Source: Echinicola arenosa (GTDB taxonomy: Bacteria; Bacteroidota; Bacteroidia; Cytophagales; Cyclobacteriaceae). From it: 64,000 nucleotides of DNA. Position numbers and translations under genes: made by a program. The notes under the pieces are model-generated. The model searched no databases, was not told the DNA's origin, and worked only from the letters and a program-made list of their open reading frames with translations. The stretch covers positions 1-64,000 of the forward strand of contig NZ_JACYTQ010000011.1 in the NCBI RefSeq assembly GCF_014841125.1. Reading direction: 5' to 3'. Positions 5,813-8,534 of the stretch are shown here, piece by piece (positions within the stretch are counted from its first letter, which is position 1; every line of letters starts with the position of its first letter).

Positions 5813-6958
5813 ATGGAAAATTTCGTAGTCTCAGCAAGAAAATATAGACCTTCCAATTTTAAAAGTGTAGTTGGGCAGCAGCACATCACTACTACCCTTA
5901 AGAATGCTATAAAAAACAACCATTTGGCGCAAGCATTTTTGTTTTGTGGGCCAAGAGGGGTGGGCAAGACTACCTGCGCCAGAATTTTGGCAAAAACTAT
6001 AAATTGCGAGAACCTTTCTTCAGACTTCGAAGCTTGTAATGAATGTGAGTCTTGCAAGGCCTTCAATACCAATAGCTCCTTTAATGTACATGAACTAGAT
6101 GCGGCTTCTAATAACTCTGTGGATGATATTAGAAATTTGGTGGACCAAGTAAGGTACGCACCGCAAAAAGGATCCTACAAAATCTATATAATTGATGAGG
6201 TTCATATGCTTTCTACACAAGCATTTAATGCTTTCTTGAAAACACTGGAAGAACCACCAAAGTATGCTATTTTTATTCTAGCTACCACAGAGAAGCACAA
6301 GATTATCCCTACCATATTGTCCCGTTGTCAAATATTTGACTTTAATAGAATTCAGATAAAAGATATATCGGAACATTTACAATATATCGCTTCTCAAGAA
6401 AATATTGGTTATGAGGATGAAGCACTCAGATTAATTGCCGCTAAGGCTGATGGTGCGCTTAGGGATGCCCTTTCTATTTTTGATTTGATTGTTACTTATT
6501 CAGCGGGTAATAAGCTGACCTACTCAGAAACTATCAATAACCTTCATATTCTGGATTATGATTATTATTTCAAGGTAACAGAGTCATTATTGGAGGAAAG
6601 TATATCTAATGTATTGTTGATTTTTGACGAAATCCTCAAGAAGGGTTTTGATGGACACAATTTTATCATTGGATTGAGTGAGCACTTTAGAAATTTGATG
6701 GTATGTAAGGATGCAGCAACTGTTGAGCTATTGCAAGTTTCAGAAAGTGCTCAAGAGAGATATGTAGAGCAAGCCGCAAAGTCTAACCTGTCTTTTTTGT
6801 TGTCAGCATTGAATATCTGTAATCAATGTGATATCCATTACAAGGGAAGTAAAAATCAAAGATTGCACGTTGAATTGGCCTTGATGAAGCTTGCCAAACT
6901 CCCTCAGGCCATTTCATTGGCTGCATTGGCTCAAGAAGAGACAAAAAAAAAAGACTAG
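5813..6958 (+). CDS. dnaX: DNA polymerase III gamma/tau, gamma-length frame
   Basis: Clamp-loader ATPase of the replicative polymerase. The AAA+ core is complete: YRPSNFKSVVGQ near 11-22, Walker A GPRGVGKT at 46-53, four zinc cysteines C65, C75, C78 and C81, Walker B IIDEVH at 126-131, and the sensor SRC at 170-172. ATG 5813 is preferred to the GTG one codon earlier. The frame stops at 6956-6958 just after ten A's (6943-6952), giving 381 residues, about the length of a gamma subunit. The -1 frame continues without a stop into a typical tau C-terminus. Slippage would therefore give both gamma and a 577-residue tau. Confidence 0.9.
   Translation: MENFVVSARKYRPSNFKSVVGQQHITTTLKNAIKNNHLAQAFLFCGPRGVGKTTCARILAKTINCENLSSDFEACNECESCKAFNTNSSFNVHELDAASNNSVDDIRNLVDQVRYAPQKGSYKIYIIDEVHMLSTQAFNAFLKTLEEPPKYAIFILATTEKHKIIPTILSRCQIFDFNRIQIKDISEHLQYIASQENIGYEDEALRLIAAKADGALRDALSIFDLIVTYSAGNKLTYSETINNLHILDYDYYFKVTESLLEESISNVLLIFDEILKKGFDGHNFIIGLSEHFRNLMVCKDAATVELLQVSESAQERYVEQAAKSNLSFLLSALNICNQCDIHYKGSKNQRLHVELALMKLAKLPQAISLAALAQEETKKKD
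6943..6953 (+). other. A10 slip site in dnaX
   Basis: Ten consecutive A's followed by G lie four codons before the gamma stop. In the zero frame they read as AAA codons, so A-AAA-AAA followed by G can slip back one base. I see no strong downstream hairpin or upstream Shine-Dalgarno stimulator, which favours transcriptional slippage (as in Thermus dnaX) over a stimulated ribosomal frameshift. A homopolymer sequencing error would look the same. Confidence 0.65.
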
Positions 6959-7545
6959 CTAAGAAGAAACTTTCTGATTCCAATAGTACCGGGCCAAACC
7001 AATCTGGATCAGGATCTGTACAGACTGTCAAGAAGGAATTAAAGAAAACTATGCCTATTCCCTCGAATATTTCCGAGGTGAAAAGAAAGGTTAAAGATCA
7101 ACTTAAAGAGCAAGAAAATTCCGTTGCAACCAAACCTGAAAAGGAAGATGTGCTGTCTGGTCAAGAGCTTAGGAGCACGCCATTTGATCAAGGTAAGTTT
7201 GGCGCTGTATTGGAAGATATTATAGCGTCGTTCAAGTCTCAGAAGAAACACTTGGAATGTACCGTTCTCAAACAGCCTTATCAAGTTAATGGAAGTAAAA
7301 TTAACTTTTTTCTAAACGGAGAGCTTCAAGAACACTTGTTTGTGAAGCTTAAGCCTGAGTTAATGGGGATAGTTAAGAAGAAACTCCAAAACGATTTAGT
7401 AGAGCTAGACTTTGAGGTAAAGGAAGATGCAGTAAGTGAGGAGAAAAAGTTATACACCTCAACAGATAAGTTAGCTTATTTGACCAAGAAATCACCAGCT
7501 CTGAAAGAGCTTCAAAAAAGGTTTGGCTTAGAAACAGACTTTTAA
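6952..7545 (+). CDS. dnaX: DNA polymerase III tau-specific C-terminal region (-1 frame of dnaX)
   Basis: This is the continuation of dnaX in the -1 frame. It is open from the A-run (first codon AGA at 6952) to TAA at 7543-7545, 197 codons. A Lys/Ser/Gly-rich linker of about 40 residues leads to a folded region, and the protein ends with SPALKELQKRFGLETDF, the usual end of Bacteroidota DnaX. An internal ATG at 7051 could make it look like a separate 164-residue gene, but the continuous homology-like ending and open junction argue against that. The last four bases overlap the convergent DUF3078 gene. Confidence 0.8.
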   Translation, partial: RLAKKKLSDSNSTGPNQSGSGSVQTVKKELKKTMPIPSNISEVKRKVKDQLKEQENSVATKPEKEDVLSGQELRSTPFDQGKFGAVLEDIIASFKSQKKHLECTVLKQPYQVNGSKINFFLNGELQEHLFVKLKPELMGIVKKKLQNDLVELDFEVKEDAVSEEKKLYTSTDKLAYLTKKSPALKELQKRFGLETDF

Positions 7546-8534
7546 AAGTCTATGCCTAGACCAAAATTAATTAAATTCTGGAGCTGAATGGCCCTCGATT
7601 TGGCCCCGTCTTCCATTTCTATATAAACGTTTTCGTCATAGATCAATACCGTTTCAATTCTGGTACTAATATACTTATTGACCTTCATACTGATGGTGGA
7701 GTTAAAGTTAACGACCATATTACCAAACTTACCATAATTGGAGAATAGGTTGAGGTCAGCTTTCCATGTAATGTTTTCCATCACTTTGGTGTTGATAGAG
7801 GTACCTAAGGAAGCTCCTGCTTCAGGTCTTACCGGGTCTCCCGGAATCACACCAAAAGCCCCTGCTTGGCTCAAGGAATCATTCAGGACAATAGTGAAAC
7901 GACCAGTAAAAGGCGATAGAATGGCAGAGAACTTAAAGTCTTTTTTTTCCTTTTGATAGTTAAGACCTGTTGATGATTGTACATAACCAGGGCTTAATAA
8001 ATCAGAAATGAGATTTCTTGAATCTAAGTCTGATCCGGAGGGCTTAAAGTATTTGTAGCCTTCCAATAGTTGGGTTCTTGCTTCAAGTTGCGTGGACATA
8101 TAAAAACCCTTTGAGAGCTCTCGTCCATATTTGCTGACAAACTTAAAGTTGTCATTTGTTTTTCTTGTTCTATAAGATCTATCGGCCTGTCTGTTGAAAC
8201 CAAAATTGATGGTCAAAGAGGTTTCCCAGATTTTTTTGTTCTTTTTATAATTGGCAAAAAGGCTAACGCCGGTATTCAAAGCAAAGGAACTAGCTCCACC
8301 TGCAGCCCAATTGGACAAACTGACTTGCTGTACACTTAGGTTGTAATTTCCGCCGGACTTCCAGTAGGTTTCTTTGACTTCCTCTTTTACTATTAGGCTG
8401 TCTCCTAGCATGATCAATGTGTCTCCATTGATGAGTACGGTATCCGGTACGATTTGTGGATTACCATCTTGGGCTGAAGCAAAATGGAAGGTGGTTAAAA
8501 AGAATATCAATAAAAATGCAAAGTATTTGACCAT
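7542..8534 (-). CDS. DUF3078 domain-containing exported protein
   Basis: Predicted secreted or outer-membrane protein (330 aa) with a signal peptide (about 1-21, cleavage after FASA). The signature SNWAAGG at 74-80, followed by alternating hydrophobic and polar strands to a C-terminal GLGIDF, is typical of DUF3078, a Bacteroidota family with beta-barrel-like repeats. Function is unknown. It lies 53 bases downstream of the MltD-like gene and may be cotranscribed with it, though a -7-like element sits in the gap. Its stop overlaps the convergent dnaX end by four bases. Confidence 0.85.
   Translation of the reverse strand: MVKYFAFLLIFFLTTFHFASAQDGNPQIVPDTVLINGDTLIMLGDSLIVKEEVKETYWKSGGNYNLSVQQVSLSNWAAGGASSFALNTGVSLFANYKKNKKIWETSLTINFGFNRQADRSYRTRKTNDNFKFVSKYGRELSKGFYMSTQLEARTQLLEGYKYFKPSGSDLDSRNLISDLLSPGYVQSSTGLNYQKEKKDFKFSAILSPFTGRFTIVLNDSLSQAGAFGVIPGDPVRPEAGASLGTSINTKVMENITWKADLNLFSNYGKFGNMVVNFNSTISMKVNKYISTRIETVLIYDENVYIEMEDGAKSRAIQLQNLINFGLGIDF

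Follow-up and report, generated by a model that had tools for sequence, protein, structure and literature searches.

A conserved run of ten adenines divides dnaX of Echinicola arenosa between a gamma and a tau frame and is probably a site of programmed transcriptional slippage

Introduction

How can a bacterium make the tau subunit of DNA polymerase III when the reading frame of its dnaX gene stops at the end of gamma? The question is raised by the dnaX locus in the window analysed here (the whole stretch of 64,000 nucleotides from Echinicola arenosa), where the gamma frame closes just after a run of ten A's and the −1 frame stays open. In E. coli, the tail of tau binds the polymerase and the helicase, and tau is needed for replication; the same is expected, by homology, of the tau considered here. 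The original prediction, made from the letters of the window, was that programmed slippage at the run yields both gamma and tau, transcriptional slippage being the favoured mechanism.

Results

Anatomy of the slippage site

The zero frame of dnaX, as read from the sequence, starts with ATG at 5813 and ends after 381 amino acids with TAG at 6956-6958. The ten A's lie at 6943-6952 of the plus strand, where the zero frame reads ACA AAA AAA AAA GAC TAG. From 6952 onwards the −1 frame (AGA CTA GCT AAG ...) meets no stop until TAA at 7543-7545, and the conceptual tau reached through it counts 380 + 197 = 577 residues. The run, the end of gamma and the sizes of both products are as originally predicted, except that TAG is the second codon past the run (GAC TAG) and not four codons away. 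The +1 frame is closed by TAA at 6960-6962: two of the three frames are thus shut within 10 nt of the run. The features of the locus are the following.

5813-6958, plus strand: zero-frame ORF, DnaX gamma (381 aa and TAG), with AAA+ ATPase, lid and domain III; from profile matches.
6943-6952, plus strand: run of ten A's, putative slippage site; from the sequence, 11 of 11 genus genomes and 256 of 354 Bacteroidota loci.
6956-6958, plus strand: TAG ending gamma in the templated frame; from the sequence and the genus comparison.
6960-6962, plus strand: TAA shutting the +1 frame; from the sequence, the genus comparison and the excess of third-frame stops in the survey.
6952-7545, plus strand: −1 frame tail, the tau-specific C-terminus (197 aa and TAA); from NF011531, tails of single-ORF tau genes and the codon-position pattern.
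7189-7536, plus strand: folded domain predicted within the tau tail, residues 80-195; from AlphaFold2.

A template with 11 or 8 A's would join gamma to tau, while one with 9 A's would run into the +1 stop instead. Of the two resequencing outcomes that had been named as refuting the prediction, an eleven-A run therefore retains that force and a nine-A run loses it. A convergent minus-strand ORF (7542-8534) shares its last 4 nt (7542-7545) with the end of the tau frame, at the stop.

The −1 frame encodes a tau C-terminus

Gamma and the −1 tail match a single full-length tau model, NF011531 (DNA polymerase III gamma/tau), in a colinear manner. The gamma part covers profile positions 1-365 of 614 (E 6.8e-223), and in the profile search its ORF further matches TIGR02397, PF13177, PF22608 and PF12169. 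The tail covers positions 433-613 (E 7.5e-15) and, within a small set of C-termini from uninterrupted tau ORFs of relatives, reaches a best E of 2.6e-19; the −1 frame is thus open to a tau C-terminus, as had been proposed. A Pfam search of the tail gave no significant match. Substitutions in the tail bear the mark of a coding sequence: the third codon position of the tau frame leads in 13 of the 13 relatives compared, with 62, 38 and 124 differences at positions 1, 2 and 3 against L016. These comparisons indicate that the tail evolves as a protein in the tau frame, that it is homologous to the tau C-terminus and that the predicted 577-residue tau would be a two-frame product of dnaX.

AlphaFold2 models the C-terminal domain of the tail (residues 80-195) with confidence: of the 12 ten-residue blocks that begin at residue 81, 8 have a pLDDT above 90. 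In the PDB, nothing matches the predicted fold at an E of 0.001 or lower; the top five, none of them significant, are led by SirA (E 0.13) and include DciA DUF721 and a DnaA N-terminal domain. Earlier work has drawn comparisons between tau domain V, DnaA domain I and DciA.

The split is conserved in the genus and the family

A sequencing error or a fresh frameshift mutation could in principle mimic this arrangement, homopolymers being prone to error; the true run would then be A11 and dnaX a single ORF. The relatives speak otherwise. All 11 genus genomes, 6 of which are single-contig assemblies, carry A10 and the identical split, and their tau frame continues for 578-596 nt without a stop; the same A10 and split recur in 29 of 29 distinct loci assigned to Cyclobacteriaceae by record title. 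An artefact at the run is ruled out by these relatives, and we regard an error or a fresh mutation as next to impossible. The comparison of run lengths in related genomes, suggested with the original prediction, thus reveals no uninterrupted frame in the genus. In the window's own family group (f1, 49 distinct loci), the split comes with A10 in 39 genes and with A9, A11 or A12 in 3, and the remaining 7, which have A10 or A11, are unsplit.

Another coding A10 of the same genome serves as a comparison case. It lies in a DsbD-like gene and occurs in only 2 of 11 congeneric orthologues, those of the window's genome and of its closest relative, the other 9 lacking the run. This run (L400, 1501-1510, minus strand; G000 C12:874966-874975) falls in a linker after the N-terminal domain, and the other frames stop 3 and 26 nt later. 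The longest A/T run of the genome is a run of 16 A's (L002, 1501-1516; G000 C1:525753-525768), over which no ORF of 80 aa or more was found.

Run length across Bacteroidota

We oriented 368 dnaX loci by tblastn and retained 354 distinct ones after dropping 14 duplicates. Within a fixed 330-nt segment, the longest series of A's was scored as the run; in short-run loci it may not be the homologous site. By this measure, ten A's are found in 256 loci, A9 in 31, A11 in 19, A12 in 2, A8 in 1 and shorter runs in 45. Clustering at 80% identity gave 171 clusters, of which 142 have at least A9 and 111 of those A10. Elsewhere in 142 of the dnaX genes of the survey (249,707 nt), runs of at least 9 A's occur only 8 times in total.

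Of the 309 loci with at least A8, the templated product is gamma in 159 and tau in 150, the two kinds being intermixed; since the class and phylum samples were hand-picked with a preference for split genes, this ratio is not a prevalence. For the same reason, the association between run and split is inflated: 159 of 309 genes with a run are split vs 2 of 45 without one, the other 43 being uninterrupted. An even order sample of 137 genomes, reduced to 131 by omitting 6 with weak or partial matches, contains 65 frames shorter than 480 aa, which we took as split.

Composition alone was rejected as the cause of the runs. If three lysines are required at the site, lysine-codon use predicts three AAA in a row in 54.4 of the 142 cluster representatives; codon bias thus contributes in AT-rich genomes. 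It hardly explains the GC-rich cases. A10 is the commonest length in each GC class of the clusters with at least A9 (52 of 63 below 40% GC, 45 of 61 at 40-50% and 14 of 18 above 50%), and L349, at 67% GC, keeps A10 although none of the gene's lysine codons ahead of the run is AAA. Above 50% GC, 12 more clusters are without any run of 7 or more.

The templated frame flips and the wrong frames are closed

All three run phases are found in the survey: tau lies in frame 0 in 150 of the 309 run loci, in the −1 frame in 152 and in the +1 frame in 7, and a tau-like ending is present in all 7 of the latter. A single-gene FastTree tree requires at least 36 switches of templated frame among the 256 A10 rows and at least 45 among rows with at least A9. 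Shuffling the labels of the A10 rows 100 times gave 76-94 changes, vs the 36 seen, which indicates that the templated frame is labile yet inherited. L362 and L374, whose N-domains are 93.5% identical, both carry A10 and are templated in opposite frames.

We then looked at stops past the run. In 287 of 309 genes, each of the two non-tau frames meets a stop within 30 nt, vs about 23% at control positions. Measured against phase-matched positions of the same genes, this double closure concerns 95.6% vs 24.4% of split genes and 90.6% vs 21.7% of unsplit genes; among the 80%-identity representatives, it is found in 59 of 63 split genes (expected 15.7) and 68 of 79 unsplit ones (expected 18.2). The third frame alone stops within 30 nt in 144 of the 151 split genes with a −1 tau frame, where 83.6 are expected. 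A −1 ribosomal shift is indifferent to the third frame, so this excess favours a step at transcription.

The A10 of Bacteroidota dnaX may be a frame-randomising device. Selection for a given slip rate would keep its length at ten, the choice of gamma or tau as the templated frame would wander almost unconstrained, and both wrong frames would stay closed; on this broader proposal our judgement is evenly poised. If true, dnaX would have no fixed frame at phylum scale, and the slipped product could be tau. Relatives with the same A10 and opposite templated frames make selection on slippage efficiency, rather than on frame, directly testable.

Stimulatory signals around the run

Downstream of the window's run we found no hairpin, the RNA being less stable than 77.5% of 40 controls from the same gene (z +0.88), in line with the original reading that a clear stimulatory hairpin is absent. 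The split type on average shows none either (mean z +0.07). In unsplit genes the mean z is −0.31. Among the representatives, about 13% of the split and 10% of the unsplit ones rank with the most stable 5% of their controls, slightly above chance. None of the five SD-like motifs tried matches upstream of the run in the window. Across the survey, such motifs are in excess (11 of 63 split genes, expected 2.6; 9 of 78 unsplit, expected 3.7), which possibly betrays some ribosomal share or reflects Glu-Glu codons before the run. The window's A10 contains the slippery heptamer A_AAA_AAA, as had been pointed out.

Eleven aligned Pontibacter loci (L084, L086, L089, L091, L093-L097, L099 and L110) are built differently. 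They have A7, with a −1 stop directly after the run, invariant GGCACC and GGTGCC downstream and an upstream SD-like motif in 5 of the 11. As the stem is invariant, covariation is uninformative on its pairing. By its sequence, this dnaX looks like an E. coli-type ribosomal frameshift module, and a switch of mechanism within the order, at Pontibacter, is possible.

Discussion

Proposed mechanism and its alternatives

Comparative sequence analysis leaves the original reading the best supported one: programmed transcriptional slippage at A10 probably yields both gamma and tau. RNA polymerase would slip while copying the run and produce mRNAs of varied run length. Unslipped mRNAs with 10 A's, and those with 10 + 3n, would give gamma, ending at TAG 6956; those with 11 A's (or 8, or 14) would bring the −1 frame into register and give tau, which would be made only through slippage. 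An mRNA with 9 or 12 A's would lead to TAA 6960 and again to a gamma-sized product; a transcript one A short has this outcome because TAA 6960-6962 closes the +1 frame. From sequence we infer the transcriptional nature of the slip, its efficiency and the production of both proteins. Transcriptional slippage is favoured because the run is conserved three bases beyond what the heptamer needs (10 vs 7), because the templated frame flips while A10 stays, because both non-tau frames are shut just after the run, because 7 of the 159 split genes have tau in the +1 frame and because the window's site has no hairpin signal.

Several observations count against it. The run includes the ribosome-slippery A_AAA_AAA, and 152 of the 159 split genes have tau in the −1 frame, which fits a ribosomal −1 slip and also a polymerase slip biased towards insertion. 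The SD-like excess, the slightly higher than chance share of stable downstream RNAs and the negative mean z of unsplit genes also weigh against it, and lysine codon bias explains part of the runs in AT-rich genomes. Moreover, slippage by E. coli RNA polymerase is reported to be stronger at runs of T than at runs of A, and at an A-run it was undetectable in one of the tests (PMC6260861).

Programmed −1 frameshifting of the ribosome on A_AAA_AAA could make tau in a mirror image of E. coli dnaX. Besides the heptamer, the −1 preference and the SD-like excess, such a mechanism can draw on the Pontibacter module, on a Chlorobium candidate for tau by frameshifting with E. coli-like stimulators (Atkins et al. 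2016, PMC5009743) and on the SD-dependent +1 frameshift site present in 72% of Bacteroidia prfB genes (PMC8710568). However, 7 A's suffice for a −1 site and 10 are retained, third-frame stops are enriched though irrelevant to a −1 shift, the frame flips and includes +1-frame cases, and hairpin signals fail both in the window and, on average, in the split type. Ribosomal slippage as the sole source of tau therefore appears improbable to us. We give somewhat more credit, while still thinking it unlikely, to polymerase and ribosome both slipping, additively, on the same run: A10 suits the needs of both, the SD-like excess leaves room for the ribosome, and the mechanism of dnaX differs between Thermus and E. 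coli (PMC1088944), but the ribosomal part has no separate support in this genome. Re-initiation after the gamma stop, giving two separate proteins, could use the tail-frame ATG at 7051. Start-codon positions make it unlikely, as 2 of the 159 split genes have their first tau-frame ATG at 60 nt or less from the run, and 33 have any ATG, GTG or TTG there; since coding constraint also spans the whole tail, we hold it to be very improbable.

Relation to known dnaX systems

The novelty implied by the original prediction does not stand. Two-ORF dnaX genes with ten A's were reported in 2013 by Antonov et al., who described 17 two-ORF dnaX genes, nine of them with 10 A's, and proposed transcriptional realignment (PMC3711429). 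The Echinicola gene shows no difference in kind: its first ORF is gamma and tau needs recoding at A10, the gamma stop follows the site directly with tau in another frame, a run of about ten A's is conserved, and the tail is homologous to tau and under coding constraint. Variation of frame direction among orthologues, the sign of transcriptional slippage in that work (PMC3711429), is likewise seen here (150, 152 and 7 of 309).

In Thermus thermophilus, dnaX undergoes transcriptional slippage at A9; it shares with Echinicola a long A-run and stops near the run in the non-tau frames, and differs in that its templated frame is tau, not gamma, and its run A9, not A10 (PMC1088944). The E. coli gene combines A_AAA_AAG with an SD-like element and a stem-loop (PMC5009743). 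Both it and the Echinicola gene encode two products in two frames around an A-rich slip site, whereas in E. coli the ribosome slips −1 into a stop and yields gamma; in Echinicola, tau would be the product of the shift, and the window showed no stimulators. According to Atkins et al. 2016, a single nucleotide change can reverse the roles at about 50% efficiency (PMC5009743). For Blochmannia, too, it has been proposed that full-length tau is reached only by transcriptional slippage at a poly-A tract, although the frameshift of that gene comes after the gamma/tau slip site, inside the tau-only part (PMC3017870). A near-fixed A10 across the phylum, with repeated flips and double closure, was not found in the main text of the open-access literature searched; the constancy of A10 together with frame flipping is what the present analysis adds.

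If Cyclobacteriaceae can make tau only by slippage at A10, replication in this family hinges on a deliberate mistake by RNA polymerase. In genomes of this kind, automated gene callers can be expected to break up dnaX or cut it short. A frame end of another kind is seen in two metagenome-assembled genomes, from Cytophagales and Arcicella (L103 and L109), whose dnaX frame ends near residue 382 with no A-run, possibly through a repeat insertion or an assembly fault; in L109, another frame is open with a long tail.
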